A stretch of 64,000 nt of DNA from Verrucomicrobia bacterium Tous-C9LFEB. Lineage in GTDB: Bacteria; Acidobacteriota; Terriglobia; Terriglobales; Acidobacteriaceae. Below, piece by piece: positions 615 through 29,762 of the stretch. The stretch is from positions 1 through 64,000 of the forward strand of contig CAJCIP010000058.1 in the NCBI GenBank assembly GCA_903970445.1. Reading direction: 5' to 3'. Within the stretch, counting starts at the first letter, position 1. Every line of letters begins with the position of its first letter. The notes below the pieces were generated by a model. The model was not told where the DNA came from and searched no databases. It saw only the letters and a program-made list of their open reading frames with translations. Made by a program: the position numbers and the translations under genes.

Positions 615-655
615 GCCCACTCATGTCGCGGGTGAGCAAGCGCAATGAATGGGGC
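615..655. repeat. Imperfect inverted repeat, probable interspersed repeat copy
   Basis: Arms GCCCACTCATGTCGCG (615-630) and CGCAATGAATGGGGC (641-655) form an imperfect hairpin around a 10-base loop. I recall similar strings as intergenic repeats in Acidobacteriaceae, but cannot check this here. It lies in the gap between the pseudogene and the DUF262 gene, which otherwise shows nothing recognisable. Confidence 0.4.
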
Positions 656-803
656 ACCCGGCGACGTGGGGCACTCCGTCAAGGTAATAACGGATTACGT
701 CATTTGGGGAACCATGATGACATGGCTGACTAATAGGCAGATTTACCGACAGGATTCCAGAATTACGTGTCTACTGTTAAGTAAAGAACAGCAGAGGTTG
801 ATC

Positions 804-1916
804 ATGGCTCTACACGACGAAATTGAGAATGGTGCGCGAGAGATAGCCACTGACGGATATGCAATTTCCATAGGCGAAATAATAAACATTTATAAAGATG
901 GCGAACTAGATTTGCACCCAGAATTTCAGCGGTTTTTCAGATGGAAGCAAGCACAAAAATCAAAGCTCATCGAATCAATACTCCTCGGCATCCCTCTGCC
1001 GTCCATCTTTGTCTTCCAAAGAACTGACGGGGTTTGGGATGTAATCGATGGACTACAAAGGCTAAGCACGATTTTGGAGTTCGCAGGCGAGCTCAAGGAA
1101 GAAGACGGCGCAAAGAAGCCGCAACTTCCCCTTACAAAAACGCGGTACCTGCCATCTCTCGAAGGTAAGTACTGGAATTCTCCGGATGCCACAAATTCTT
1201 TTGGTGACGCAGAGCGCCGGATGATTAAGAGAGCCAAGATTGACGTAAAAATCATCAAAAGTGATAGCAGTGAAACGAGTAAGTTTGAACTTTTCCAACG
1301 CTTGAACACGGGTGGCTCTATCGCTTCAGATCAAGAAGTTCGCAATTGCCTACTCATTATGAACAACAGAGAAATGTTCAAGTGGATCGAAGAACTCGCC
1401 CAAAATGCGGACTTTCAACTGTGCACTGCTCTTACATCTAGGCAGCTTGAGGAGCGTTACGATCTTGAACTGATACTAAGATTCATGATTTTGAAAGGAT
1501 TGCGCGAGGATCAGCTCGCTTTCGAGGATGTTGGCGATTTTCTGACTGACCAAATGTTGAACATCGCGTCGCTGACTTCTCATTTCAGTCAGCGAAGCTC
1601 AAAGGAGGCCTTTGAGAATACTTTTCGGGCCTTGGTAGCGTCGGGCCTAGAAGATGATTCCTTCAGGAAATACGACGCAAACAAGGGTCGATTTCTCGGA
1701 TCGTTTAGTATTTCGGGTTTTGAGGCCGTGGCAGTTGGTCTAGGTAGCCGTTTTGAGCAGTCAAACTCGCCTGTTAATGGGGAGAGGCTAATCGAAGCAA
1801 TAAAACAGATATGGGGTACTCGAGAATTTACCGAGTATTCAGGGTCTGGGGTGCGAGCAAGCTCTCGCATTCCGCACATAGTGCCACTTGGGCGCAGAAT
1901 CATCGCTAACTTATGA
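804..1916 (+). CDS. DUF262 domain protein (GmrSD-N/ParB-like fold), candidate defence component
   Basis: A 370-residue protein with the DUF262 signature: EFQRFFRW at about residues 40-47 and IDGLQRLSTI at 81-90, the conserved Fxx(R/W) and DGxQRLxT elements. DUF262 proteins are ParB/Srx-fold proteins found in GmrS/GmrD type IV restriction and several phage-defence systems, where the domain is thought to bind or hydrolyse nucleotides. The ATG at 804 is chosen because AGAGG lies about 9 bases upstream and the DUF262 homology begins soon after; an in-frame upstream start at 645 would add 53 residues of unlike composition. Base composition is visibly AT-richer than neighbouring genes, suggesting acquisition. 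It overlaps the next gene by 4 bases, so the two are probably translationally coupled. Nuclease residues of the GmrD C-terminal domain were not recognised. Confidence 0.85.
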   Translation: MALHDEIENGAREIATDGYAISIGEIINIYKDGELDLHPEFQRFFRWKQAQKSKLIESILLGIPLPSIFVFQRTDGVWDVIDGLQRLSTILEFAGELKEEDGAKKPQLPLTKTRYLPSLEGKYWNSPDATNSFGDAERRMIKRAKIDVKIIKSDSSETSKFELFQRLNTGGSIASDQEVRNCLLIMNNREMFKWIEELAQNADFQLCTALTSRQLEERYDLELILRFMILKGLREDQLAFEDVGDFLTDQMLNIASLTSHFSQRSSKEAFENTFRALVASGLEDDSFRKYDANKGRFLGSFSISGFEAVAVGLGSRFEQSNSPVNGERLIEAIKQIWGTREFTEYSGSGVRASSRIPHIVPLGRRIIANL

Positions 1917-2548
1917 CTCCTGTCCGAACACTGGTCGAGCTGGAAGACGCTTTACAGCTAGACGCTAGTTGGCGCCGTAAAGAACTGGCGAGCCTCTATC
2001 TATCCGCAATTGGTGGAAAGGGTGAAGCGCAGAGTCGAGCAATACGTAGCGGTATCGCACTCACATATGCACATTTAGAGGGTTTTGTACGGCAATCAGT
2101 ACGAGTGTATCTCGCCTTTGTACGGGGGCGGAATCTGCGTTATGAGGAACTGGCACACTGTTTTCTATCTCTTAAAGTCTCTCGAATGGTAAGTCATGGC
2201 ACGACAAAGGCGTCGTACTACCATGGTGCGGTTCGAATGCTGATCGAAGATGCGAAGGAGATCGCAATCTTGCCTGAGCCGGAAGTCATCAGCGCACATT
2301 CCAATCTGAGCTTTTCTCGCTTTGTCGAGATTCTCTACTGTGTGAACCTTGACGCGTCGAGGTTTTCACTTCGGGAGCACTTTTTTGACGACGTGATCTT
2401 AGCAAGACGGAACGCGATTGTTCATGGTGAGTTTAGAAAGCCAGTCCTATCGGACTACATCGAAATTCACAATGGCGTGCTGGATATCACAGACCGATTG
2501 GAGCAGATGATAGTGGACGCAGCCTCAAATGCGAAGTACAAACGTTGA
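1913..2548 (+). CDS. HEPN-like protein (MAE_28990/MAE_18760 type), predicted RNase
   Basis: A 211-residue, mostly alpha-helical protein containing the HEPN catalytic motif RNxxxH: R166-N167 and H171 in the string ARRNAIVHGEF. The layout, an early helix with ALTYAHLEGFVRQ and a late RNxxxH, fits the MAE_28990/MAE_18760 HEPN family. HEPN proteins with this motif are usually metal-independent RNases in toxin-antitoxin, CRISPR and abortive-infection systems. The start overlaps the DUF262 stop (ATGA), so the pair looks like one functional unit. I infer a two-component defence module in which DUF262 senses or regulates and HEPN is the effector. No other effector or methyltransferase gene is adjacent. 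Confidence 0.75.
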   Translation: MTPVRTLVELEDALQLDASWRRKELASLYLSAIGGKGEAQSRAIRSGIALTYAHLEGFVRQSVRVYLAFVRGRNLRYEELAHCFLSLKVSRMVSHGTTKASYYHGAVRMLIEDAKEIAILPEPEVISAHSNLSFSRFVEILYCVNLDASRFSLREHFFDDVILARRNAIVHGEFRKPVLSDYIEIHNGVLDITDRLEQMIVDAASNAKYKR

Positions 2549-5161: not shown

Positions 5162-6067
5162 CTAGCTCAGGTCTTCCGTAGTATCGCCCTTGGCTATGCC
5201 GATGATGGAGAGCTGGTTCGCCTGCGTGCGCTCTGCCACGCCGGTGAGCTCGATCCAGCGGATGGTGCCGTCGCCGCCGAGGATTTCGCCGGACCACTCC
5301 AGGTGGTCACCCTCCTCCTCGATGGAGGCCGTCGCTTCGGAGAAGCGATCGCGCTCCGCGGGTTGGACGATCTTCTCGGCGAGCATCTCTACCGAGAGCG
5401 GACCCTGCGTGCGGGGACGGCCAAACAGCTTGTACATCTGATCGTTCTCCCACGTGAAGCGGCCGGTGTCCAGCACCCACGTGAACGTGCCGAAGTTGCC
5501 TGCGTCGAGTGCGAGGTTGAGGCGAGAGGAGGCCTTGTTGAGGATGTCCGTTGTCGCCTCGTGTAGCGCGTTCAGCCGCCGCTGCTCCAGCAACGCCGTC
5601 GCCTGGCGGGCGAGCGCTTCGAGGGCCCTGAGTTGCGGCTCGGTGAGCTCCCGCGGTTTCTGGTCGATGACGCAGACCGTGCCCAGCACGTGGCCCTTCG
5701 GATCGATGATAGGGGCACCCGCGTAGAAGCGCACCTGATGTTCGCCCGTGACGAGCGGATTCTCGTAGAAGCGAGAATCTTTGGTGGCGTCCGGCACGAC
5801 CATCGTTTTCGCGTTCCCGAGTGTATGCGCGCAGAAGCTCATTTCGCGTGACGTTTCGACGATATCCAGATTGCGTGCCGCTTTGAAGAACTGGCGGTCC
5901 CGGCCGACGAGCGAGACGAGCGAGACGGGAGCGTCGCAGATGTAGGCGGCCAGCTCCGCGAGATCGTCGAATACCTGCTCGTGTTCCGTGTCCAGTACCT
6001 TGTACGCATCGAGCGCGGCGAGGCGTTGGTCCTCGGCATGCGGCGTGAGTGTCGTGCGCTCTGTCAT
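5162..6067 (-). CDS. GAF-PAS sensor protein without an output domain
   Basis: A 301-residue soluble protein. Residues about 12-165 form a GAF domain of the type following RLAALDAYKVLDT (VFDDLAELAAYICDAP, FYAGAPIIDPKGHVLGTVCVID). Residues about 175-295 form a PAS_3-like fold with a PAC-type end (WTGEI-like WSGEILGGDGTIRWIELTG). This architecture usually precedes a histidine kinase or GGDEF domain; here the gene stops after the PAS, so it is either a stand-alone sensor acting on another protein or a truncated form. No DNA-binding or catalytic motif is visible. It stands alone, divergent from the DUF3606 gene. Confidence 0.85.
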   Translation of the reverse strand: MTERTTLTPHAEDQRLAALDAYKVLDTEHEQVFDDLAELAAYICDAPVSLVSLVGRDRQFFKAARNLDIVETSREMSFCAHTLGNAKTMVVPDATKDSRFYENPLVTGEHQVRFYAGAPIIDPKGHVLGTVCVIDQKPRELTEPQLRALEALARQATALLEQRRLNALHEATTDILNKASSRLNLALDAGNFGTFTWVLDTGRFTWENDQMYKLFGRPRTQGPLSVEMLAEKIVQPAERDRFSEATASIEEEGDHLEWSGEILGGDGTIRWIELTGVAERTQANQLSIIGIAKGDTTEDLS

Positions 6068-6205
6068 AGGTTTGATGTTTCGTTCTTCCGGTTAGCAGAT
6101 TCTACCCGTGTTCCAGGATTTGCGTTTGATGAAGCGGCGCGAGCTTCCGCGGTACATCCCGAAGCGCCAAGAGCTTCTCTTACAAGAAACAGAAACGAGG
6201 AACGC

Positions 6206-6451
6206 ATGTCCAAGCACGAGACGGTAGAGCATGAGCAGAAGTCGAAGGAACACCAGCCGCACGCACCGCATGAGGAACCGACGAAAAGCCCGCACGATCC
6301 CAAAGAGATCAACCCGAAACTAGCTTCGGATATCGCGTACTGGTCGAAAGAGTTCGGCGTCACAGGCGAGAAGCTGCACGAAGCGATCCGCGCCCACGGC
6401 ACGCACGTTGACAAGGTGCGTGCGGCGTTGCACTCGCACAAGACTGCCTAG
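6206..6451 (+). CDS. DUF3606 small protein
   Basis: An 81-residue protein. The N-terminal half is low complexity (Glu/His/Lys/Pro-rich); the C-terminal half (IAYWSKEFGVTGEKLHEAIR and then VDKVRAAL) matches the DUF3606 pattern YWxxxFGVxxxxLxxAVxxxGxxxxxVxxxL. ATG 6206 is chosen because ACGAGG lies five bases upstream; longer in-frame reading back to 5981 overlaps the divergent GAF gene and lacks support. Family function is unknown. The stop overlaps the convergent thioesterase gene by 4 bases. Confidence 0.8.
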   Translation: MSKHETVEHEQKSKEHQPHAPHEEPTKSPHDPKEINPKLASDIAYWSKEFGVTGEKLHEAIRAHGTHVDKVRAALHSHKTA

Positions 6452-6861
6452 ATCACGATAAAGAGTCCGGTAGCTTTCGCCAGCAGGGTTCCTGCTCCAT
6501 CGTGGAGCTCTGCAGTGTGAAAAAGCTTGCGGCCTTCACGACGCAGATGCGTTCCTGTAAGTTGAAGCGGGACATTTAACGGCGCGGGCCGCAGGTAGTC
6601 CACTTCCATATGCCGCGTCATCGCGCGAACGCCGAGTGGATGGTTGAGCTTGCTCATTGCCTCGTCCATGAGCGTGGCAATGATGCCGCCATGCAGATAG
6701 CCGGGGTGGCCTTCGAAGTTGCGGCCCAGGTTGACGGTTGATGTGGCGCGCAAACCGTACGCATTGTCCGCGTGTCCGAGCGTGCTGTGTGTGGCAAACA
6801 CCAGGTGGAGACCCTGCGGGTTGGTCGTGCCGCATCCGAAGCAATGGTTAGGTGAAGCCAA
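6448..6861 (-). CDS. PaaI-type hotdog thioesterase
   Basis: A 137-residue hotdog-fold protein. The N-terminal CFGCG motif is characteristic of one acyl-CoA thioesterase branch, and the central HPGYLHGGIIATLMDEAM contains the HGG(I/A)xxxxxDE active-site helix of PaaI-type enzymes, which hydrolyse acyl- or aryl-CoA thioesters. It probably acts as a homotetramer in the cytoplasm; the substrate cannot be predicted. The only workable start is TTG at 6861, just before SPNHCFGCG. Confidence 0.85.
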   Translation of the reverse strand: MASPNHCFGCGTTNPQGLHLVFATHSTLGHADNAYGLRATSTVNLGRNFEGHPGYLHGGIIATLMDEAMSKLNHPLGVRAMTRHMEVDYLRPAPLNVPLQLTGTHLRREGRKLFHTAELHDGAGTLLAKATGLFIVI

Positions 6862-6952
6862 GTTTTGAACCTATTTCAAGCTGAAGATTTGTGGCGCTGT
6901 TGGAAGCAGGCAGATCCTCCGCCTTCGGCGAAGGATGACGATACGAGAGGTT

Positions 6953-7780
6953 CTAGCGCTTGTTTACGGCGTCGTCCAGGTCGTCGATCTTCTCGACTAC
7001 TGTGTTGAGCTTGCGGGCGAGCGCTTGAATTTCGGCTTCGGCGCGGCGGTTCACTTCGAAGTCCAACTCGCTGCGCACGCGATCCTTCAGATCCTGCCGG
7101 TTCTGGCTCATCATGATCACCGGCGCTTGAATCGCCGCGAGCATCGACAGGAACAGGTTTAGGAGGATGAACGGGTAAGGGTCCCAAGCGCGGCCCTTGA
7201 GGAAGATGTTGATCAACGTGTAGACAATCAGCGTTACAGCAAAGGTGATGATGAACGACCAGGAACCGCCAAACGATGCGACCTTGTCGGCGATGCGCTG
7301 GCCGAATGTTTCCTGGTCATCAATTACCTGATTCGGATTCTTGCTTGCACGCCCGCGCACCAGCGCCTGCGTGGAATGAATCTCCCGCGCCAGCACCGTG
7401 AGCATGTCCATGCCCGCCATCGGCTTGCGTGTTAGCAGCACCGAGATGTCATGTTGGTCGACCTCCAGGCAAACGGTCTTCTCTAACGCCACCGCCGTCG
7501 TTTGGTGGGTCGTCGTCTCCAGCATGGAAGCAAAGCCGAAGAAGTCTCCATGGCGCGGCTCGGAGAACACAACGTCCTGGCCGTCTTCATCGATGAGCGT
7601 AAGTCGCACGCTGCCGTCCATGACGACGAAGGCGCGCGTGCTCGGTTCCCCGGCCTTGTAGATACGCTGACGCGCCTGAAACTCACGCATTTCGACTTGT
7701 GAGGCAAGCACAGAGAGCTCGTCGTCATCAAGCAACGAGAAGAGCGGGACGTGGCGGAGTTCGAGTGGGTCGCAGGGCAT
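6953..7780 (-). CDS. Cyclic-nucleotide-binding domain / DUF1003 membrane protein
   Basis: A 275-residue protein with two parts. Residues about 10-130 form a cNMP-binding (CAP effector) domain (FQARQRIYKAGEPSTRAFVV, DFFGFASML); the classical phosphate-binding Arg of the cassette is not obvious, so ligand binding is uncertain. Residues about 165-275 form a DUF1003 domain with two transmembrane helices (FIITFAVTLIVYTLINIFL and PFILLNLFLSMLAAIQAPVI) and a coiled tail after NRQDLKDR, the conserved DUF1003 end. DUF1003 function is unknown; this domain pairing occurs in several phyla. Single gene. Confidence 0.85.
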   Translation of the reverse strand: MPCDPLELRHVPLFSLLDDDELSVLASQVEMREFQARQRIYKAGEPSTRAFVVMDGSVRLTLIDEDGQDVVFSEPRHGDFFGFASMLETTTHQTTAVALEKTVCLEVDQHDISVLLTRKPMAGMDMLTVLAREIHSTQALVRGRASKNPNQVIDDQETFGQRIADKVASFGGSWSFIITFAVTLIVYTLINIFLKGRAWDPYPFILLNLFLSMLAAIQAPVIMMSQNRQDLKDRVRSELDFEVNRRAEAEIQALARKLNTVVEKIDDLDDAVNKR

Positions 7781-7962
7781 AGGAAACCTAGTGGCGAGTG
7801 GCTAGTGATTCGTGACGGTATTGCTCGCACGACATTGTAGCCTTGCGCTGTCACGAATGTGTTGCAGCCGATTCTCGCTTGATTCGTAAATGTACGGAAG
7901 CCTTCTACAGTCAAGCAAGCTTGAGTTAGATCCTTAGCCTCGCCATCGCCACGAACCGCTCG
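7781..7962. other. Intergenic gap with low-complexity AGTGG string
   Basis: At about 7790-7815, directly upstream of the DUF1003 gene, is a string built from TAGTGG/CGAGTGG/TAGTGAT words like those at 11645-11692. Nothing else recognisable is present. Confidence 0.4.
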
Positions 7963-10392
7963 TCATTCGCTTCTCTGATTGCTGACAACTTCTTTCCCCC
8001 CGGAAGCAGCAATCACGTATACCGGGCCGGAGACGAGTGGCAGTGTACGTGGCTCGTCGGATGTCGATTGCCAGAGAAAGATGCGCTGTGGGCTGGCCCA
8101 CTTTTTGGCGAAGGACTGTGGGGTCTCGAAGATTTTTGGCGCGTCCGGAAAGAAGCTGCCGTACCAGAGGTTGGAGCTGCGACCATCGAGGATGTGGATG
8201 TCATCGCGCTGCAGATAGAAGCCGAGCGTGGAGCCTGCTTCGTATTCGCCATGAATGACGATGAGGTCGTCTGGGTGGACCTGCGGCTTGATCGCGTCGG
8301 CGAGTTGTGCGGAGCTGAGTACCGGAGCGAAGGTTCGCAGCGCGAGGAACGCAGCGAGAAGGAAGCAGAATGTTCCGGCGGCAAGAGCGAGGTTGGCGGC
8401 GTGCGGGTGGGCGCGTTTGCGCAGGAGGAGTGCGGCAAGCGGGCCTGCGAAGAGACCGAGCGCGGAGAGTGCTAGCGGCAACCGGAACAGGCCGAGGGCG
8501 CGTGCGTTGAGGTCGAGGAAATGGCCCATGCTGAGCGCGTAGTCCTGCGGGTTTTGGGTGAGAAGGCTCGCCAAATCGGTGTTCGGTGCGGGTGCTTGCG
8601 TGTGGAGTAGAAGCCAGAGGGCTGCTACGGCGTAAAGAGTGCCAAGAGCGACGAGGATTGTGGTTGAAACGGATGCGCTGTCGTGCAGCCACGAGCGGTG
8701 GGCAGGGCCTTCGACTGCGTCTCGCGGTGAGGCTGCGAGACTCCGCTCAGGATGACGGGCGGAAGAGGTGTGGGCGAGCCAACCGGCGATGAGTATTGCG
8801 AGCGCGGGGAGTGCGGGAAGGACGTAGTACTCCTGGCGTGTGGAGAGAGAGAAGAAGAGCAGGACAAAGGCGACACAGATAAAGAGGAGAAATCCTCCCA
8901 CCATCGGCCCGTGGACGTGAAGGTCCGTACGCATTCGGCTGGGACGGATACGTAGCCAGATCATCTGGAAGGTGTTTCGAAAAAGAGCCCATGTGATCTG
9001 AAACGCAAACGCAGACCATGGCATGATCCAGACGAGACATAGACCCCAGAAGAGCCAGAGTGGCGAGGTGTCGTAGTCATGGGGAACACGAAGGTTGAGG
9101 TAGCGCAGCAGGTGCTCGTTCATGAAGTAAAACCAGAACCAGCCGCGCACGTTGCCGTCGGTGGGTAGTGGAATCTGCCAATGGCCGTTCACGAAATGGA
9201 AGGCTGCGGGATGGCCCTGGGTGGGATTGTGCAGGCCCGCGAGGATGTGCCAAGGTGCGGCGATGATGAGGAAAAGGATTGTCGCGCTGAGTGGATGGAG
9301 AGTGCGGAGGCGCTGTCTTGTCTGGGTGAAGCCTTCGGTGAGCAGGAGGTAGATTGTGACGATGGCGAGTGGGAAGACAAGGCCGATGAGGCCTTTGGTG
9401 AGGACGTTGAGTGCGCAGGCTGTGGCGAAGAGGAAGGACCATCGGCGCGTGTAGATCCTGCGAAGCAATGCGGGGGTCTCTCCACTCCGCGCTTCGCGCT
9501 CCGGTCGAGATGACAAGTGTGGTGGTGGGGGCGAGAGCTCTTCGAGCTCGGGCATCCTGCAAAGAAATACAGGGGTCTCTCCACTCCGCGCTGCGCGCTC
9601 CGGTCGAGATGACAAGTGGGGTGGTGGGGGCGAGAGCTCTTCGAGTTCGTGCATCCTGCGAAGCAATGCGGGGGTTTCTCCTCTCCGCGCTTCGCGCTCC
9701 GGTCGAGATGACAAGTGTGATGGGGGCGAGAGCTCTTCGAGTTCGTGCATCCTGCGGAGAAATGCGGGGGTCTCTCCGCTGCGGTGAGCTTCGCTCACCC
9801 CCGGTCGAGATGACAGGTTCTGAGGGTGAGCGCTAGTGGTGGATGTGGAAGGTTCGCCGAGGGTTTCGTGACTGCGCCAGCTCGGGGTTTCGTTGCTGCG
9901 CCAGAAGGCGTAGAGCGCGAGCGTGAGCCAGAGGCAGACCATAGCGTCGGGGATGAGGATGCGCGTGAAGATGAAGATGCCAAAGCTCGAGAGGATGATG
10001 AGTGCGGCGTAGAGGCCGGCACGGGCTGACTGGAAGAGCCTGCGTGCAAATGTTTCGCAGAGCAGTGCGAGTGCAAGCACGGTGAAGGCGAGCGGGAGGC
10101 GTGCTGCGGCGGCGAGTGCGCGAGGCGTAGTGGCGCCGAAACGTTGCGAGGCACGCATGCAGGCGGCCATCGACCAGTAAAACAGCGGGGCTTTTTCGAG
10201 ATAACGGATGCCATTCGCGTGCAGCGTTACGTAGTCGTGGCGGAGAAGCATCTCTCGCGCGACCTCGGCGTGGACTGAGTCGGCGTCGTCGAAGAGCGCG
10301 GGGGTGAAGAGTGTGACGCTTGCGTAGAAACAGAACCATAGCAGCAGCACGGTGAGTAGCGTGGATCGTGGCCTGCTGGGGATGGGGCGCAT
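7963..10392 (-). CDS. Glycosyltransferase family 39 (ArnT/PMT-like) membrane protein with repeat insertions
   Basis: An 809-residue polytopic membrane protein. The N-terminal DDADSVHAEVAREML and the later RYLEKAPLFYW match the acidic motif and EKxPLxYW motif of PMT_2/ArnT enzymes, which move sugars from polyprenyl-phosphate carriers to lipids or proteins on the periplasmic side. About a dozen hydrophobic helices follow, then a soluble C-terminal part. The protein is well above the usual 500-600 residues because of two in-frame insertions derived from interspersed repeats: residues about 190-313 (four tandem units) and about 545-570. ATG 10392 is preferred over TTG 10401. Whether the insertions are tolerated in a loop cannot be decided from sequence. 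Confidence 0.85.
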   Translation of the reverse strand: MRPIPSRPRSTLLTVLLLWFCFYASVTLFTPALFDDADSVHAEVAREMLLRHDYVTLHANGIRYLEKAPLFYWSMAACMRASQRFGATTPRALAAAARLPLAFTVLALALLCETFARRLFQSARAGLYAALIILSSFGIFIFTRILIPDAMVCLWLTLALYAFWRSNETPSWRSHETLGEPSTSTTSAHPQNLSSRPGVSEAHRSGETPAFLRRMHELEELSPPSHLSSRPEREARRGETPALLRRMHELEELSPPPPHLSSRPERAARSGETPVFLCRMPELEELSPPPPHLSSRPEREARSGETPALLRRIYTRRWSFLFATACALNVLTKGLIGLVFPLAIVTIYLLLTEGFTQTRQRLRTLHPLSATILFLIIAAPWHILAGLHNPTQGHPAAFHFVNGHWQIPLPTDGNVRGWFWFYFMNEHLLRYLNLRVPHDYDTSPLWLFWGLCLVWIMPWSAFAFQITWALFRNTFQMIWLRIRPSRMRTDLHVHGPMVGGFLLFICVAFVLLFFSLSTRQEYYVLPALPALAILIAGWLAHTSSARHPERSLAASPRDAVEGPAHRSWLHDSASVSTTILVALGTLYAVAALWLLLHTQAPAPNTDLASLLTQNPQDYALSMGHFLDLNARALGLFRLPLALSALGLFAGPLAALLLRKRAHPHAANLALAAGTFCFLLAAFLALRTFAPVLSSAQLADAIKPQVHPDDLIVIHGEYEAGSTLGFYLQRDDIHILDGRSSNLWYGSFFPDAPKIFETPQSFAKKWASPQRIFLWQSTSDEPRTLPLVSGPVYVIAASGGKEVVSNQRSE
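8698..8760. repeat. Interspersed repeat copy inside the GT39 gene
   Basis: The plus strand carries GGGCCTTCGACTGCGTCTCG and ends CGCTCAGGATGACGGG; it resembles the CTCAGGATGAC element at 55868-55966. In the gene it is read in frame as HPERSLAASPRDAVEGPAHR, a sequence with no likeness to glycosyltransferases. Confidence 0.6.
9455..9827. repeat. Four tandem repeat units inside the GT39 gene
   Basis: Units start with ATCCTGC at 9455, 9554, 9653 and 9749, giving periods of 99, 99 and 96 bases and a last partial unit of about 79. Each holds CGGTCGAGATGACAAG and a GCGCTTCGCGC hairpin. All full periods are multiples of three, so the array is translated as repeated LSSRPEREARxGETPALLRR and HELEELSPP. 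A related single copy lies outside genes at 51986-52030. Confidence 0.9.
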
Positions 10393-19721: not shown

Positions 19722-19952
19722 ATGGAAGGCTTGGACAGAATCACCCAGAACCCAGCGGTCATGCAAGGCAAAGCCTGCATTCGTGGCATGCGAGTAACGG
19801 TGGCGATGATTGTCCGGCAGGTAGGATCGGGCACAACAGTGGAGGAGATGCTTGAGGCCTTTCCTTATTTGCAACGAGAAGATATTCTGCAGGCCATCCA
19901 ATACGCTGGCATGCTCGCGGAAGGACGCGAGGTGGAACTAGCAGAAGCATGA
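19722..19952 (+). CDS. DUF433 antitoxin-like protein
   Basis: A 76-residue protein with the DUF433 pattern: RITQNPAVMQGKACIRGMRV, then EMLEAFPYLQREDILQAIQYA. DUF433 is a helix-turn-helix-like fold commonly paired with PIN-like proteins in predicted toxin-antitoxin operons. CAGGAGG at 19709-19716 gives a good ribosome site. It overlaps the next gene by 4 bases (ATGA). Confidence 0.88.
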   Translation: MEGLDRITQNPAVMQGKACIRGMRVTVAMIVRQVGSGTTVEEMLEAFPYLQREDILQAIQYAGMLAEGREVELAEA

Positions 19953-20329
19953 AGTTGCTGCTGGACATGAACATGTCGCCGATGTGGGTAGCTGCATTAG
20001 AAGATGCTGGTTACGCGGTTACACATTGGGCGGCGCTCGGTCCCGCCGATGCTCCGGACCACGTGCTTATGTCCTACGCACATGATCACGGAATGATCAT
20101 CTTTACTCAAGATCTTGACTTCGGTATAGCCCTAGCAATATCTGGCGCAGACTCGCCGAGTGTGGTTCAGCTACGCGCAGCCGACGCGCTACCAAGCGCT
20201 GTTGGAAGACCGGTTGTAGATGGTTTACGTCAAACGCGTCGTGAATTATTGGAAGGTGCGCTTGTGACCATAGACGCGAGGCGCACACGGGTGCGAGTGC
20301 TTCCAATCCGACCGGCCTTCGAACGATAG
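19949..20329 (+). CDS. DUF5615 PIN-like protein, candidate toxin
   Basis: A 126-residue protein with the Mut7-C/DUF5615 PIN-like pattern: LLLDMNMSP near the N-terminus (acidic residue D6), then IFTQDLDFG with two aspartates around residues 53-56. These resemble the metal-binding acids of PIN nucleases. Coupling with the DUF433 gene by an ATGA overlap marks a TA-like module. Nuclease activity for this family is a prediction. Confidence 0.85.
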   Translation: MKLLLDMNMSPMWVAALEDAGYAVTHWAALGPADAPDHVLMSYAHDHGMIIFTQDLDFGIALAISGADSPSVVQLRAADALPSAVGRPVVDGLRQTRRELLEGALVTIDARRTRVRVLPIRPAFER

Positions 20330-21572: not shown

Positions 21573-24107
21573 TCAGGATGCCGAGGCAGGTTCTTCGACG
21601 ATCAGATCGTCCACGGCAATTTCGAGCGCCTTCCCAAGTTTGCGAAATCCTTCGCGCCACTCACGTGTCCAGGCGCGGCTTTCCTTCTTGCGCAGCATGT
21701 CATTCCAGATGTTCTGAGCCTGCCACAGGTTAACCTCCATCGGAAGCGTCTGCAGGCTTTCAGCGATGGCGAGCGTTTCCTTCAGGACATGCGATGTTTG
21801 CGCCTCAGCAGCGGCTTCCAAACGCACCATCGCGCGTTTCATGCGGCGGTCGGCTGCGTAGGAAAGCACTGTGGCATCCAGCGTGACATTATCGACAGTT
21901 CCACGGCGCAGCAGTCGCGCGACTTCCGCCGCGTCGTAAGGCTCGGCCTCAAAGGCTCGGCGCAGGCCCGCGTTGATGGCAAAGCCGGCCGTAAGCGCCA
22001 GTGCCGGTGGCGCCGGCACGTTCGACTCAGAGAGGAAGTTCAGCAGAGTCGCATGCTCTTCATAGATCTGAATCAACGACGTTTCGACCTGAGAAATTGT
22101 CTGGTTCAGGATGCTTTGCAAAATGCGGTGCTGCTCGTCAGAGAACAGCGAAGTGAGTGAATAGAGAGTGCCGCCGAAGAAGGCATCGATGGAGCGGATG
22201 AGCTGCGGCAGGTCAGCCCGGCGTAATGCAGCGCGCGCGCCTTCGCCGAAAGAATCCCATGCTTCCTCATCCGCAGGCGTATAACGGCGCACTGCGGCGG
22301 AAAGATTTTGATCGCCAAGATGAAGTACGGCGAAGCATATCTCTTCTGTCTCTTCGGTTATCTGCGAACGCAGGGACGCGCGGCCAAGCGCGACACGTCC
22401 GCGGCCAGACGTCAGCAACTCGTACGAGTTTCGCTGGATGTCGAAGCAGAAGAGCTCGCCCGAATCCGGATAGCTGCGAAACATGGAGCTGATCGCGTAA
22501 TGCGCGCCGACGTGTTCGAGATCGACGAGCGCGCCGGTCACATAACGGCGGTAGACGGATCGGCCATCACCTATATCGGGTACGTTCGACTTGGCGCGTT
22601 CCAGAGTTTTCAAAAAGTCTTCTTCGAGCGTCTCTCCCGGAAGGCCGAACAACTTGGCCGCAAGCTGCAGCACGCGCCCGGCATAGGCGATGATCTGTAC
22701 GGTCTCGATGCCGGAGATTTCATCGAAGAACCAGCCGCAGCTCGTGTACATCAACTGTGAATGACGCTCGAGCTCAAGCAGCTCCAGCGCGGTCACACGT
22801 TCCTGTGGGCTGAACTCGTGCGTGGCATGTTCGGAGAAGAAACGTTCCGTCGATTCGGCACTGCGATCCAAGACGATATCGATGTAAGCGTCACGCGCCT
22901 TCCAAATGTCTTTGAAGAGACCGGCTCCAAGCTCCTCTGCGAGGGGTGCAGTGCGGTCGCGCAGCATGTCCAGCGCATCGCGCAGAGGCTTGCGCCACTC
23001 CTGGTTCCAGCCGGGTTTGCCGCCATTGCACCCGCAGTTTGAGCGCCATCGCTCCACGCCGTGAGAGCAGCTCCATGAGCTGTTGTCGACGACCTCGGCT
23101 TCCCATTTCGGCGGAAACTTCTCCAGGAACTCGCCGTAGTTGGTCACCGTAGCGAAGCCATTTGCTTCTATCCAATGCAGCGCATAACTCAGCGCCATTT
23201 CACCGTGCCGATGGTGGTGGCCATAGCTTTCGCCATCGGTAGCAACGTGCGAAAGCTGCGGCTCGTTGTTGTCTTCTTTGAAACGCGAAACAATGCGCTG
23301 GCCAAACATTTCGCCCGAGGTGAGCAGGCCTTCAAACGCGATCGCGCGCGAGGGCGGACCGTCATAGAAGAAGACGGCAATAGAACGGCCTTCCTCGAGC
23401 CGCACGAGGTAGGGATGGCTTGGATCGACCTGGGCGTCGGGAGTTTCCTTCCATGCCGCAGGCTCACGCGCGGCAACGTCCGTTGCGGCCTCCCCAGGCT
23501 TGCGAACGCGCGCGCACTGATGCGGAGCGAGGACCGTGAACTTGATGCCTTCCTGCGCCATGAGGTCGAGCACGGAGCGGGAGACAGCGGTTTCCGCCAG
23601 CCACATGCCTTCCGGCTTGCGATGAAAGCGGCACTCAAAATCCGCGATGCCCCAGCGAATCTGTGTGCGCGCATCACGCTCACTGGCGAGCGGCATGATG
23701 ATGTGGTTGTAAACCTGCGCGAGTGCGGAGCCATGGCCGCCAAAGCGGGCGCTGCTGGCCTTATCCGCATCGAGGATCATGCGGTACGTGCGTGGGGCGA
23801 ACTCTTCGAGCCACGACAGCAGGGTCGGCCCGAAGTTGAAGCTCATCCGCGCGTAGTTGTTCAGGATGCGCGTGATCAGGTTGTTCTTGTTCTTGATGCG
23901 CGAGGCCCCATTGGGCGCGTAACACTCTGACGTGATGCGCTCGTTCCAATCGTGATAAGGCGTTGCGGAGTCCTGAACCTCTACCGTCTCAAGCCACGGG
24001 TTTTCACGTGGCGGCTGGTAGAAGTGTCCATGCACGCAGACGTAACGGTTCGGAGCTGCGGGTTTGTAGGCGAGGCGCTTGCGAGATTGCGAACGGTAGT
24101 CAGACAT
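21573..24107 (-). CDS. GH57-like glycoside hydrolase with DUF3536
   Basis: An 844-residue protein. The N-terminal half has the GH57 hallmark VCVHGHFYQPPRENPWLE (about residues 22-40), later MWLAETAVS, the region of the GH57 catalytic Glu. The C-terminal half corresponds to DUF3536, the usual companion. GH57 enzymes include amylases, amylopullulanases and branching enzymes acting on alpha-glucans; the exact activity of GH57-DUF3536 proteins is not established. No signal peptide is evident, so it is probably cytoplasmic, for glycogen-type polymers. Divergent from the peptidase-gasdermin operon. Confidence 0.85.
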   Translation of the reverse strand: MSDYRSQSRKRLAYKPAAPNRYVCVHGHFYQPPRENPWLETVEVQDSATPYHDWNERITSECYAPNGASRIKNKNNLITRILNNYARMSFNFGPTLLSWLEEFAPRTYRMILDADKASSARFGGHGSALAQVYNHIIMPLASERDARTQIRWGIADFECRFHRKPEGMWLAETAVSRSVLDLMAQEGIKFTVLAPHQCARVRKPGEAATDVAAREPAAWKETPDAQVDPSHPYLVRLEEGRSIAVFFYDGPPSRAIAFEGLLTSGEMFGQRIVSRFKEDNNEPQLSHVATDGESYGHHHRHGEMALSYALHWIEANGFATVTNYGEFLEKFPPKWEAEVVDNSSWSCSHGVERWRSNCGCNGGKPGWNQEWRKPLRDALDMLRDRTAPLAEELGAGLFKDIWKARDAYIDIVLDRSAESTERFFSEHATHEFSPQERVTALELLELERHSQLMYTSCGWFFDEISGIETVQIIAYAGRVLQLAAKLFGLPGETLEEDFLKTLERAKSNVPDIGDGRSVYRRYVTGALVDLEHVGAHYAISSMFRSYPDSGELFCFDIQRNSYELLTSGRGRVALGRASLRSQITEETEEICFAVLHLGDQNLSAAVRRYTPADEEAWDSFGEGARAALRRADLPQLIRSIDAFFGGTLYSLTSLFSDEQHRILQSILNQTISQVETSLIQIYEEHATLLNFLSESNVPAPPALALTAGFAINAGLRRAFEAEPYDAAEVARLLRRGTVDNVTLDATVLSYAADRRMKRAMVRLEAAAEAQTSHVLKETLAIAESLQTLPMEVNLWQAQNIWNDMLRKKESRAWTREWREGFRKLGKALEIAVDDLIVEEPASAS

Positions 24108-24235
24108 CTCGTTTGTTATTGGACGTTAGTTTTTCCGTTGGAGCAACTGACGAAAGATGCAGTCAGCCATCAGCGATGCAAGGTCGAAGAAAGTCTCCTC
24201 GCCACCGGGGAAGGACATCGCGTAGGGTTATCGCC

Positions 24236-25402
24236 ATGAGAGCAGCTGAGGAATTAGCCAAGCGCCAGCGCGAGAGCCCGCTGGGTCAGAGTGGTGATCG
24301 TGTGCACAGTCTCTTTCAATCATTGCCGCCGATGTCGGACGCGCAGTTCGAGAAAGTGCGAAGCTCTGCCAACCTCGCGGTCGGCGAAATGAATTTACGC
24401 CAGCCAAATGCGAAGACATTTCACTTCCCTGACGGTTCGCACCTCATTACGATCTTCAGCGGCTTGATCGATTTCTATTCTTTCGCATGCCAGATCCTTA
24501 TGCAGGCTGGAACGTTTCACACGGAAAAGGGCGCTGAAGAAGGACGTTCCATCGAGGACCTGATCATCGATCTCAAGGAGCTTTTCCTCACCTGGACTCC
24601 GCAGGGAATACAGGAGAACCTGCCGTCCGGCGCAATCCTGTCTCCGCTCGATCCGGCCAGAATAGCGGACGCAAATATCCTGCTGAACGGAGCGTTGCGG
24701 TTCATTCTCTGCCATGAGCTCGGACACGTTCGGTTCTACGACCCAGCGCGGAACGAGGCAAACAGGCCAGCACTGACGGCAGAACAGGAGACGATCTCGG
24801 ACACTACCGGGATGCAAGCGGCGCTGTTGAGCGACCCTGGATTGGGCGCGATTCGCATGAACTTGGCGGGTTGCGTCATGTCGCTGCGAATCCTTGCTGT
24901 CTTTGGCACGTTGGGGCACACGTTTACGGGTGATCATCCGGATCCGCTCAGCCGCGTCAACAACATCTTTGCCGCGCTGCGGCCGTTTTGTGAGTCGCAG
25001 GCGCAGTATTGGTGGGTATCTCCCATCGCATATGCATTTGACGAGTTGTTGGAAACGGCAGGTCAGCGTGCGACCGGCGGCCCGGATGTGTTGCCGATCC
25101 TTGCGGACCGCGCGTTCTCGCGGCTGGCCTCCGCCCTCGAAGAAGTGATGAAGGGTCGGCAGGAGAAAACGATCATTGTTCCGCTGATGGCGCGTGAGTT
25201 CGAGGAGGCGACCCCGGAGCAACTGAAAGAGATAGCTGAGTACGCGGCGGAGATCTTTGCCGCTAATGCGTTTGCAAGGCTGTATGCCGGACAAAAATGG
25301 GCAGAGAAGGGAGCGATCTTTCGCTCGCTGTATCATGAGTGGCCTGCAAGAGCAGTTGCGGCGTTCGACGAAGCATTCAAGGCGCGGAAGCCGGGAGCGT
25401 AA
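24236..25402 (+). CDS. HExxH metallopeptidase (M48-like), partner of gasdermin-like protein
   Basis: A 388-residue protein from ATG 24236 (AGGG about 9 bases upstream). It carries the zinc site H160-E-L-G-H164 within FILCHELGHVRFYD, then E185-T-I-S-D189 about 20 residues later, matching the gluzincin ExxxD third-ligand helix, and DHPDPLSRVNNIF, resembling the THPxxxxRI element of M48 peptidases. Unlike HtpX/Ste24 no transmembrane helices are clear, so it is probably soluble. The stop codon is 4 bases before the next start, so the two form an operon. I infer it is the activating protease that cleaves the gasdermin-like protein. Alternatively it is a stand-alone stress peptidase. The N-terminal 150 residues show no family I recognise and might sense the trigger. 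Confidence 0.75.
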   Translation: MRAAEELAKRQRESPLGQSGDRVHSLFQSLPPMSDAQFEKVRSSANLAVGEMNLRQPNAKTFHFPDGSHLITIFSGLIDFYSFACQILMQAGTFHTEKGAEEGRSIEDLIIDLKELFLTWTPQGIQENLPSGAILSPLDPARIADANILLNGALRFILCHELGHVRFYDPARNEANRPALTAEQETISDTTGMQAALLSDPGLGAIRMNLAGCVMSLRILAVFGTLGHTFTGDHPDPLSRVNNIFAALRPFCESQAQYWWVSPIAYAFDELLETAGQRATGGPDVLPILADRAFSRLASALEEVMKGRQEKTIIVPLMAREFEEATPEQLKEIAEYAAEIFAANAFARLYAGQKWAEKGAIFRSLYHEWPARAVAAFDEAFKARKPGA

Positions 25403-25406
25403 ACAG

Positions 25407-26207
25407 ATGGCCATTACAGGATGTCGCAACGATGCATTAACGGTTCTACTGAATAGCCTCGGTTATCAGCCCCTTGTGTTGCCGAAGACAGGGCTGAAGG
25501 CGCCCTACGTGTACAGCTACAAGGACACCAAGCTGGAACCCGTCGGACCCCTCAGCGACTTTCTTGCTTCTGGAACTGCTCAGCCCGAGCTCGAAGAAGG
25601 CGAAGTTCCTGAGATAGCTCGAAAAGAGACTGACAAGAAGAGCGGATCGGCGGTTGCTTCGTTCCTTGGCGACGCGCTGCAGGTCATTGGGATTACGTCG
25701 GCGCCGAAGTTCACCGGTTCTCTGTCCCATGGAACGGACTTTGTCTTCAGTTTCGATGACATCACGTCTGAAGGTCTGTCTTACTCGAAGGCGTCTCGTC
25801 TTTTGCGCAGCATCGATCAGGATTCATTGTCTGACCTGCCTCCCGGCGATCTACAGGCCGGCTATATCCACATCGCTTACGAGTTTCTTTATGCGGGCAG
25901 CCTGGGCATGCGTGCGGCTTCGGGGACATCCGCGGCATTCGATGCCAAAGCGTTACAGGTGCAAGCGCTTCTGGATGTGGGAGCGAGTGGACAGATAGAA
26001 GCAACTTCGGGTACGTCTTTGTCCTTCAAGCCGAAAACACCGCAGCGAGCTGCGTTTGCCTGCAAGATCGGTTGGCTCGAAAAGCATGGCAAAGAGCTAA
26101 AGCTGCACATCCACGAGGATGAGGGCGAGGGTTTTCTCGCCGATGAGGGCGGACCGAAGCCCTATCTGCTGGAGCGCGGTGTTGTTATCCGGGCTGAGGG
26201 AACCTAA
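25407..26207 (+). CDS. Bacterial gasdermin-like pore-forming protein
   Basis: A 266-residue protein, the usual length of bacterial gasdermins. Features shared with known bGSDMs: an N-terminal Cys within the first few residues (C6 in MAITGC), a start of the form CxxxxLxxLxxLGYxxxxLPxxGL (residues 6-30), a GPLSDFL stretch near 47-53, a strand-helix FVFSFDDITSEGLSYSKASR (112-131), a mid strand IHIAYEFLYAGSLGM, and a short C-terminal tail (about 236-266) that could be the autoinhibitory peptide. In characterised systems a nearby protease removes that tail, and the palmitoylated N-terminal domain forms large membrane pores that kill the infected cell. The upstream HExxH peptidase gene is 4 bases away. 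Assignment is by pattern, not by alignment. Start ATG 25407; longer in-frame reading overlaps the upstream gene. Confidence 0.8.
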   Translation: MAITGCRNDALTVLLNSLGYQPLVLPKTGLKAPYVYSYKDTKLEPVGPLSDFLASGTAQPELEEGEVPEIARKETDKKSGSAVASFLGDALQVIGITSAPKFTGSLSHGTDFVFSFDDITSEGLSYSKASRLLRSIDQDSLSDLPPGDLQAGYIHIAYEFLYAGSLGMRAASGTSAAFDAKALQVQALLDVGASGQIEATSGTSLSFKPKTPQRAAFACKIGWLEKHGKELKLHIHEDEGEGFLADEGGPKPYLLERGVVIRAEGT

Positions 26208-26301
26208 AGAAGGTCGCAGCGGCAGCAGCGGTTTGCCGGGCGTGACGAAAAGGTGGTCTTATGCTCATGCGTCTTTAACCTATCTTTTCCGAGAGTGTCC
26301 G

Positions 26302-28920
26302 TTGACCTTCAAGTCCCGTCTTTCCTCCGCCTTTGTAAACGCGCGCGGTATCCCGTGTGTTCTTGCCGCTGTGATCTTGTCGCTGCAGCCTTCGTTGAGC
26401 GCGCAATCCGCGATGCCCGCGCCTGAGCTTACATCCGCGCAACAGCAGGAGATCGAATCGATCATCAAGGGCATGACGCTCGAGCAGAAGATCGATTACA
26501 TCGGTGGCACCGGATTTGCGGCGAGAGCGGTGCCCTCGGTGCATCTGCCCGCATTTGAGATGTCGGATGGTCCCGTCGGCGTGCGCTCGAACTCCGGCTT
26601 CCCATCGACGACTTATGCCGGCGGTATCGGACTGGCCGCAACGTGGGACCGTGAGTTGGCGCAACTGACCGGTGCAGGCATCGGGCGCGACGCGCGGGCA
26701 CGCGGCGTGCACTACATGCTCGGGCCGGGAACCAACATCTATAAGTCGCCGCGCAATGGCCGTAACTTCGAATATTTCGGCGAGGATCCTTTTCTTGCGA
26801 GCGAGATGGTGGTTGGCTATGTCACCGGCATGCAGCAGCAGGGTGTCAGCGCGACGGTAAAGCACTACATCGCTAACAATTCGGAATATCTGCGGCATGA
26901 CTCCGATTCCGTAGTCGACGAGCGTGCGTTGCGCGAAATCTACATGCCTGCGTTCGAATCGGCAGTTCGCCGCGCCCATGTTGGCGCTGTGATGGATAGC
27001 TACAACCTCATCAATGGAGAGCACGCGACACAGAACAGCTTTCTGAACATTCAAGTGCTGCGTAAGGACTGGGGATTCAAGGGCACGCTGATGTCGGACT
27101 GGGATGCGACCTACGACGCGGTTGGCGCGGCCAATGGTGGGCTCGATATCGAGATGCCTACCGGCAAGTTTATGAACGCGAAGAACCTGCTCCCTGCGAT
27201 CAAGGCGGGGAAGGTTTCGGAAGCGACCATCGACGAGAAGCTCAGGCACATCCTTTTCACGGCAGAGCAGTTCAACTGGCTCGGACACGAGCAGCGCGAC
27301 TCTGCAATTTCGACGTTCGACAGCGAGAGCAATGCGACTGCGTTGCGCGGCGCACGCGAGGCTCCGGTGCTGTTGAAGAACGCCGGCAATCTGCTGCCTC
27401 TGAATAAAGCAGAGATCAAGACAGTGCTGGTGGTTGGACCGGATGCGTTTCCAGGTGCCGCGGTGGGTGGCGGCAGCGCTGGCGTTGTTCCGTTCCACAA
27501 GGTTAGCCTGCTGGAAGGCGTAGCGATGGTGGCGCCGGGTGTGAAGGTGCTCTATGACGCCGGGTTGCCGACGCTTGGTCAGCTTGCGAACGACACGAAC
27601 TTCATGACTGCGGCGACCGGCGGCAAGCCCGGGCTCCTGCATGAGACGTTCGACAACAAGAACTTTGCCGGCCCAGCCAAGCAGAGCATTACACCTCATA
27701 TCAGTAACGCAGGTGTGGGCTGGGACGCGATTTCAGACGACCTTGAAACCATCATGGCGTTGTTCTCCGCGCCACCGAAGGTTACGTCGCAGCGTTATAC
27801 CGGCTACTACAACGCGGAAAGCGACGGCGATTACCTGATTGCGCTGGCCGGTGCCGGCGAAGGCAACGGTGATCGCGTCTACATTGACGGCAAATTGCTG
27901 ATCGATGACTGGACCATGGTGCGCGCGTTTGAGCCGCACATGACGATGCCGCTATCTGCGGGGATGCATAAGGTCGTTGTGGAGTCCTGGCAAGGCGGAC
28001 CGATCGGCGGTAAGCTGCGGTTCGGCATCATCGCGGAAGGCAAGGTGGTGAACGAGCGGGCAAAAACGCTCGCTGCGAAGGCGGATGTCGTGATCATCGG
28101 CGCGGGCTTCAGCGTGAGCAAGGATAATGACAGCGAATCCGAAGGCGGTGACCGCACCTTCGATCTTCCCTATGGGCAGGATGCACTGATTCGCGCGATG
28201 GCCACAGCGAATCCGAAGACGATTGTGACCGTCAACTCCGGCGGCAATGTTGACTCAACGACGTGGATGGATCAGGTGCCAGGCTTTATCGAGGGCTGGT
28301 ACGGAGGACAGGAAGGCGGCCGTGGCATAGCTGAGATTCTGTTCGGCGACGTCAATCCCTCCGGCCATTTGCCCGCAACGTTTGAGCGCAAGGCAGAAGA
28401 CAATCCCACGTTTGCGAACTACTACCCTGAAGGCGACAGCAAGCGTGTGCTCTATAAGGAAGGCATCTTCGTTGGCTACCGCGGATATGAGAAGAATGGT
28501 GTTACGCCGCTGTTTCCATTCGGCTACGGCCTGTCGTATACGACTTTCAGCTTTGCGAATCTGAAGGTGACACCGGGTGCGTCTGCCGCAGGCGCAACAG
28601 TGGAGTTCGATGTGACAAACACTGGCTCTCGCAAGGGTGCTGACGTAGCGCAGGTGTATGTATCGGAGCCACATGCGAAAGTGCCGCGGCCTGCGCATGA
28701 GCTGAAGGGCTTCGAGCGCGTAGAGCTTGCGCCGGGTGAAACGAAGCATGTTTCCGTCGCGCTGAATGCTCGTGCGTTTGCCTACTACGATGTTGCGAAG
28801 AAGGGCTGGACGATTGATCCGGGGCAGTTCACGATCGGCGTGGGTGATTCGGTTGCGTCATTACCCTTGCAGGGAACGGTGGGTCTCCCTGTTGACGCTG
28901 TGAAGAAGGCGTCGTTCTAA
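26302..28920 (+). CDS. Secreted GH3 beta-glucosidase with PA14 insert
   Basis: About 872 residues from TTG 26302, which precedes a signal peptide (VLAAVILSLQPSLSAQS). The GH3 N-terminal barrel contains SDGPVGVRS, GRNFEYFGEDP, KHYIANNSE and MSDWDATYD with nucleophile D266. The second GH3 domain starts near APVLLKNAGNLLPL and is interrupted at about 435-590 by a PA14-like carbohydrate-binding domain (YTGYYNAESDGDYLIALAGAG), followed by the rest of the domain and a C-terminal FnIII-like module (VTNTGSRKGADVAQVYVSEP). PA14-containing GH3 enzymes are typical plant-polymer degraders. Start choice is uncertain: there is no ATG at the expected place and only GAGAG upstream. Confidence 0.9.
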   Translation: MTFKSRLSSAFVNARGIPCVLAAVILSLQPSLSAQSAMPAPELTSAQQQEIESIIKGMTLEQKIDYIGGTGFAARAVPSVHLPAFEMSDGPVGVRSNSGFPSTTYAGGIGLAATWDRELAQLTGAGIGRDARARGVHYMLGPGTNIYKSPRNGRNFEYFGEDPFLASEMVVGYVTGMQQQGVSATVKHYIANNSEYLRHDSDSVVDERALREIYMPAFESAVRRAHVGAVMDSYNLINGEHATQNSFLNIQVLRKDWGFKGTLMSDWDATYDAVGAANGGLDIEMPTGKFMNAKNLLPAIKAGKVSEATIDEKLRHILFTAEQFNWLGHEQRDSAISTFDSESNATALRGAREAPVLLKNAGNLLPLNKAEIKTVLVVGPDAFPGAAVGGGSAGVVPFHKVSLLEGVAMVAPGVKVLYDAGLPTLGQLANDTNFMTAATGGKPGLLHETFDNKNFAGPAKQSITPHISNAGVGWDAISDDLETIMALFSAPPKVTSQRYTGYYNAESDGDYLIALAGAGEGNGDRVYIDGKLLIDDWTMVRAFEPHMTMPLSAGMHKVVVESWQGGPIGGKLRFGIIAEGKVVNERAKTLAAKADVVIIGAGFSVSKDNDSESEGGDRTFDLPYGQDALIRAMATANPKTIVTVNSGGNVDSTTWMDQVPGFIEGWYGGQEGGRGIAEILFGDVNPSGHLPATFERKAEDNPTFANYYPEGDSKRVLYKEGIFVGYRGYEKNGVTPLFPFGYGLSYTTFSFANLKVTPGASAAGATVEFDVTNTGSRKGADVAQVYVSEPHAKVPRPAHELKGFERVELAPGETKHVSVALNARAFAYYDVAKKGWTIDPGQFTIGVGDSVASLPLQGTVGLPVDAVKKASF

Positions 28921-29039
28921 GTTTGCCGATGCTCGATAAAGTGGACGTCAGAGGCGAACGCGAAGGTCGCAAAGATGCGCCACAGGATCGGTAGCGTTTA
29001 CGGCGTCCTACTGCCGGTTGATTGCTGAACCGGGCAACA
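28921..29039. other. Intergenic gap
   Basis: Between the convergent GH3 and DNA glycosylase genes. No terminator hairpin or repeat recognised. Confidence 0.3.
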
Positions 29040-29762
29040 CTACTCAGGCTGCACGATCTTGCCGGCGGCGAGGTCGCAGGCTCGCCACATGTACCAGCTT
29101 GCGACGGAGCGCCATGGAGCCCACTTCCTGGCGCGGCGCTCCATTTGTTCTTTGGTGGCGAGCAGGTCTGGTGTGACCTTCTGCTTTGGCTTGAGGCCGA
29201 GGTAGGTAAGGGCGAAACCCTTGCGCACGCCGTAGTCGCTGACCGGCAGAACGTCAGGGCGGCCGAGGCGGAACATCAGCATCATCTCCACGGTCCAGCG
29301 CCCGATGCCACGCACCTGCGTAAGGTGCTCGATGATGTCTTCGTCGGACATGCGCTTGATCTTGGCGAGCGTGGGCACGGTGCCGTCGAGCGTCTTTGCG
29401 GCCAGGTCGCGCACGGCGAGCGCCTTGTTGTGCGAAAGACCGGCGCCGCGGAGTTGGTCGTTGGGGCAATCGAGCAGGTGTTCGGGTGACGGATGCGACG
29501 GCGTGCCGTCAGGACCTATGCCGCAGATGTGTTCAAAGCTCTTCAGCAGCTTGGCGTGAATGGCGGCAGCGGCCTTGCCATGCAACTGCTGGTAAATAAT
29601 GGAGCGGGCAAGCGCCTCGAATGGGGACTGCTGTGAGGGCAGCCTCAGCGTGAATGGGCCAGCCTTCGCGATCAGTTTCGCGAGCTTCGGGTCGGCAGCG
29701 GAGAGTGCCGCGACAGCTTCTTCAGGATCGTAGGGAAGCTTGCGGGTGCGGGCAGGAGGCAT
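29040..29762 (-). CDS. DNA-3-methyladenine glycosylase II (AlkA-type HhH-GPD)
   Basis: A 240-residue base-excision repair enzyme. The helix-hairpin-helix LTQVRGIGRWTVEMMLMF and the GPD loop with catalytic Asp (DVLPVSDYGVRKG) are complete, and FEALARSIIYQQLHGKAA matches the N-terminal part of the domain. The length fits Mag1/AlkA-like enzymes lacking the E. coli AlkA N-terminal domain. It removes alkylated purines such as 3-methyladenine. No Fe-S cysteines, so not an EndoIII/MutY type. Confidence 0.9.
   Translation of the reverse strand: MPPARTRKLPYDPEEAVAALSAADPKLAKLIAKAGPFTLRLPSQQSPFEALARSIIYQQLHGKAAAAIHAKLLKSFEHICGIGPDGTPSHPSPEHLLDCPNDQLRGAGLSHNKALAVRDLAAKTLDGTVPTLAKIKRMSDEDIIEHLTQVRGIGRWTVEMMLMFRLGRPDVLPVSDYGVRKGFALTYLGLKPKQKVTPDLLATKEQMERRARKWAPWRSVASWYMWRACDLAAGKIVQPE

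Follow-up and report, generated by a model that had tools for sequence, protein, structure and literature searches.

What triggers bacterial gasdermins (bGSDMs) is called a major open question by Johnson & Kranzusch 2022 (PMC9612521), and the gasdermin systems in the literature that we searched rely on caspase-, trypsin- or subtilisin-like proteases. The locus described here, from an Acidobacteriota (soil-type) genome, poses that question in another form, with a gasdermin gene lying directly adjacent to a gene for a zinc peptidase. Could a peptidase of this kind be the activator? The window, that is, the whole stretch of DNA analysed, is 64,000 nt long, and the features that concern the pair are the following:

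24236 to 25402, + strand: Lit/U49-like zinc metallopeptidase by its motifs, 388 aa (ATG at 24236, TAA at 25400-25402; HELGH, E185xxxD189 and H234P235; matched by PADLOC PDLC03011 and the NCBIfam Lit model)
24713 to 24727, + strand: codons of the HELGH zinc site, residues 160-164 (position computed from the residue number)
25407 to 26207, + strand: divergent bacterial gasdermin by profile matches, 266 aa (ATG at 25407, stop codon ending at 26207; PADLOC bGSDM, NCBIfam and hhalign)
26142 to 26162, + strand: DEGGPKP, residues 246-252 of the gasdermin, the predicted loop for cleavage, placed by alignment with other bGSDMs and by analogy with characterised bGSDMs, which are cut about 20 aa from the C-terminus
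24108 to 29039, no strand: accessory 4.9-kb stretch that holds the genes for peptidase, gasdermin and GH3 beta-glucosidase and is flanked by a conserved GH57 gene and a conserved AlkA/HhH-GPD gene

The 266-aa gasdermin

Both open reading frames were found where an earlier note on this DNA had placed them, on the + strand with an intergenic gap of 4 nt between the peptidase gene and the 266-aa gene, and translation of the gasdermin is probably coupled to that of the upstream peptidase. The note had also called the 266-aa protein a bacterial gasdermin, and profile searches bear this out. Comparison with the PADLOC bGSDM model gave an E-value of 3e-36 (residues 6-257), and the NCBIfam prok_gasdermin model matched at E 7e-21 with 75 bits, under its curated 100-bit cut-off, which fits a divergent member. 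Alignment of the protein alone by hhalign to a profile of 11 other bGSDMs, built without it, resulted in a probability of 97.8% (E 1.2e-12), and the same profile also finds the solved bGSDM structures 7n51, 8sl0, 7n52, 9v2s and 7n50. Identity to ten other acidobacterial bGSDMs is 16-20%, and the single-sequence AlphaFold2 model (pLDDT 33) was too poor for a fold search. Judged by the profile matches, which lie far beyond chance, the 266-aa protein is a real but divergent bacterial gasdermin.

In known bacterial gasdermins, a short C-terminal tail locks a buried, acylated N-terminal Cys. The present protein carries Cys6 and the LGYxxxxLPxxGL opening, both of which had been recognised in the note, and Cys6, shifted in the alignment by one position from the column in which several canonical bGSDMs have their Cys, is a candidate acylation site. 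At the other end of the protein, the predicted cleavage loop DEGGPKP lies C-terminal to the A245 strand and is followed by a short tail.

The adjoining metallopeptidase

From HELGH plus ExxxD, the peptidase had been read as a zinc enzyme of M48-like class. The zinc motif was recovered, with HELGH at residues 160-164 and ExxxD formed by E185 and D189. The M48 class was abandoned, since Pfam PF01435 scored 12.3 bits (E 0.15), short of its cut-off of 20.3, and the relationship found instead is to Lit/U49. The peptidase matches the PADLOC model PDLC03011 ("peptidase_U41") at E 9.5e-23 (residues 45-347 against positions 50-344 of 378 in the model), and E. coli K-12 Lit also matches it at E 1.5e-10. 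Seven residues of the peptidase, H160, E161, H164, E185, D189, H234 and P235, align with E. coli Lit, and the first five are invariant both in that alignment and in the one with two distant relatives. The common PDLC03011 match and the HExxH...ExxxD...HP arrangement thus indicate that the 388-aa protein and Lit (MEROPS U49) are distantly related and that the former is, by its motifs, a zinc-site metallopeptidase.

The NCBIfam Lit model matches the peptidase weakly (E 0.0012), and a profile comparison of Lit with the peptidase group (52.6%, E 1.4e-4) is suggestive but weak. Pfam PF10463 (Peptidase_U49), for which E. coli Lit scores 374 bits, gave no match to the 388-aa peptidase at E up to 10, so we describe the protein as Lit-like and do not file it as U49 proper. 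Its predicted structure was too poor for a fold search, and no obvious sensor domain is present in the peptidase/gasdermin pair. As regards the model itself, "peptidase_U41" is perhaps a misnaming of U49, since E. coli Lit, the U49 peptidase, matches it. The PADLOC models for bGSDM (PDLC02986) and caspase (PDLC02987) are near PDLC03011 in number, and our guess, judged by the numbering alone, is that PDLC03011 was perhaps built from gasdermin neighbours.

Genomic setting and search for further pairs

The GH57/DUF3536 gene adjoining the pair (21573-24107) is kept in 27 of the 28 genomes of the genus, and in six sister genomes it lies about 0.1-0.7 kb from an AlkA-like gene (29040-29762 in the window). 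Here 4.9 kb separates the two, and the genes for peptidase, gasdermin and GH3 beta-glucosidase lie in the interval. Sister species lack this stretch with the pair at the corresponding site, which is what an accessory defence module would be expected to show. The peptidase was found in one of 28 genomes of the genus, and the gasdermin in none of the eight congeners sampled. The GH3 beta-glucosidase gene (26119-28920, + strand) belongs to the same missing stretch. The window around the pair holds mostly housekeeping genes and no dense defence island. Farther off, at 645-2545 (+ strand), Pfam identifies a GmrSD_N (DUF262) gene and, directly behind it, a HEPN gene of MAE_28990/RiboL-PSP type, a possible second conflict/defence pair, and 19949-20326 (+ strand) encodes a DUF5615/PIN-like protein, possibly a toxin-type nuclease.

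Bacterial gasdermins are rare in Acidobacteriota, with matches in 4 of 396 genomes of a phylum sample and 10 of 399 of a class sample. No relative of the peptidase is encoded within about 1.5 kb at any of the 11 other acidobacterial bGSDM loci. The neighbours there include proteins that are caspase-like at L030 and L037 (PADLOC), CHAT-type at L032 (via SAVED_CHAT) and, judged by eye only, CHAT/caspase-like at L027, L028 and L033-L035, while the neighbours at L029, L031 and L036 could not be assigned. Since the position is taken by a caspase/CHAT-like protease at the loci that could be assigned, the metallopeptidase appears to occupy the activator slot.

Elsewhere in Acidobacteriota, PDLC03011 gave weak matches, none better than E 2.8e-6, and those examined resemble unrelated HExxH proteins. 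Gammaproteobacteria samples contained the peptidase model in 1 of 369 genomes at 1e-6 and bGSDM in 1 of 345. Searching plasmids and phages by tblastn with the gasdermin and/or the peptidase returned no relatives, and viral contigs scanned with the peptidase, the gasdermin, the peptidase plus Lit, a motif-shaped alignment and canonical bGSDMs yielded no confirmed relative. A genome-collection scan, whose query alignment included two artificial rows loosening the HExxH pattern and whose matches held up in tblastn with the actual peptidase sequence, revealed at least two distant relatives, one from a Chamaesiphon MAG (L039) and one from Stenotrophomonas maltophilia (L040). In both, a Pepco-domain gene (PF24393) lies immediately upstream of the Lit-like metallopeptidase gene (5949-7568 in L039, about 7541-9113 in L040). 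A third relative, on the Ensifer adhaerens plasmid pCasidaAB (L041), was found by tblastn with these two peptidases; at 5659-8905 a Lit-like HExxH peptidase adjoins a caspase-like gene, matched by the PADLOC caspase model at E 1.7e-13, a possible conflict system in a stretch for which the PLSDB table lists no genes. Distant relatives beside Pepco-domain or caspase-like genes point to conflict-system-like contexts, and no bGSDM match was found in the L039 and L040 genomes or the Ensifer plasmid record.

As to the co-occurrence of the two families, for which the note had proposed a neighbourhood search, a second copy of the exact pair was not found in the genome samples searched here, and Peptidase U49 does appear in the legend of a published bGSDM operon figure (PMC9612521). 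A pair seen once among our samples might be a chance neighbourhood, in which peptidase and gasdermin were each acquired and do not work together, but the 4-nt spacing on one strand, the common accessory stretch and the listing of both families in that legend speak against it, and we give this explanation very little credence.

The same legend bears on novelty. A metallopeptidase trigger would, according to the note, be a new variant of bacterial pyroptosis, a claim now weakened, as Fig 2 of Johnson & Kranzusch 2022 shows four bGSDM operons whose genes, by its legend, include a "peptidase (Peptidase U49)" (PMC9612521), and PADLOC-DB has a matching Lit-related model. The concept of such a pairing is thus not new. 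PMC9612521 is the sole text in the searched literature with both "gasdermin" and "U49", and no experimental test of a gasdermin/Lit-like peptidase pair was found in that literature. What stands of the original reading is a gasdermin with an adjoining HExxH peptidase; the M48 class and the unreported pairing do not. We regard the pair as a divergent instance of an already noticed, apparently untried gasdermin operon type.

Proposed mechanism and relation to known systems

We think it likely that the pair is a two-gene abortive-infection module with a phage-activated Lit-like peptidase and the gasdermin as pore-forming executioner; cleavage of the gasdermin by the peptidase, triggering by phage and pore formation are what we infer beyond the gene pair and its motifs. 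Lit is a latent zinc protease that becomes active when T4 Gol binds EF-Tu, cuts EF-Tu at Gly59-Ile60 and through this cleavage causes suicide of T4-infected cells (PMC3014915), and neighbouring proteases free bacterial gasdermins with a cut some 20 residues short of the C-terminal end (PMC9612521). The Lit/U49-like peptidase would likewise be latent until a phage-derived cue arrives, perhaps, by analogy with Lit, a phage protein complexed so that the substrate becomes cleavable. Once active, it would cut the gasdermin near its C-terminus in the predicted loop (residues about 240-252). Loss of the short tail would then allow the gasdermin N-terminal domain to insert in the inner membrane, and the resulting pores may kill the cell before phage release. 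A stricter version, a minimal two-component pyroptosis in which the Lit-type peptidase both senses the phage protein and cuts the gasdermin, with the pore replacing translation arrest, is offered tentatively and seems to us rather doubtful.

The genes may be linked without the peptidase being the direct cutter, if its target is a host factor, for example EF-Tu, or if it serves to regulate or degrade the gasdermin, while another protease activates in trans. EF-Tu is the known substrate of Lit (PMC3014915), the Lysobacter bGSDM system has more than one protease (PMC9079055), and members of the peptidase family are also found where there is no gasdermin. However, no other protease gene was seen within the inserted stretch, and gasdermin genes beside their activating proteases are the rule, with direct cleavage reconstituted for neighbouring proteases (PMC9612521); together with the tight operon and its 4-nt gap, this supports an activator role for the peptidase and makes an indirect one unlikely.

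The proposed cleavage and pore formation might also serve ends outside phage defence, for instance competitor-induced or developmental lysis. Such roles are raised for bGSDMs by Johnson & Kranzusch (PMC9612521) and would suit a pair whose immediate neighbours include neither phage nor other defence genes, but both Lit (PMC3014915) and the tested bGSDM operon (PMC9079055) act against phage, and we consider a non-phage role distinctly improbable. If the Lit-like peptidase does cleave the gasdermin, metalloproteases would become a pyroptosis-triggering class, and a link would exist between Lit and gasdermin, two phage-suicide systems. With just two genes and no parts of NLR or CARD type, the unit would also be a simple system for asking what activates a bacterial gasdermin.

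Among known systems, the bGSDM operons for which the Fig 2 legend of Johnson & Kranzusch lists Peptidase U49 (PMC9612521) resemble the pair in combining a gasdermin gene with one for a U49/Lit-type peptidase; the pair differs in being acidobacterial, with a divergent gasdermin and a peptidase that misses the Pfam U49 model. With Lit of the E. coli e14 prophage, whose role is suicide-type phage exclusion, the peptidase has in common HExxH, ExxxD and HP as well as the PDLC03011 match, whereas the two are 21% identical in global alignment and 388 versus 297 aa long, the substrate of Lit is EF-Tu, and the e14 stretch examined has no gasdermin gene next to Lit. The Lit-like peptidases paired with Pepco proteins (L039, L040) are distantly related HExxH peptidases at 22% identity; unlike the present pair, their upstream partner is a small Pepco-domain protein and their genomes have no bGSDM match. 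Finally, as in bGSDM systems with caspase/CHAT-like proteases (Runella type), the gasdermin has an adjoining dedicated protease, a short C-terminal tail and an N-terminal Cys, but where those systems use a cysteine protease, the protease here is, by its motifs, a zinc metallopeptidase.
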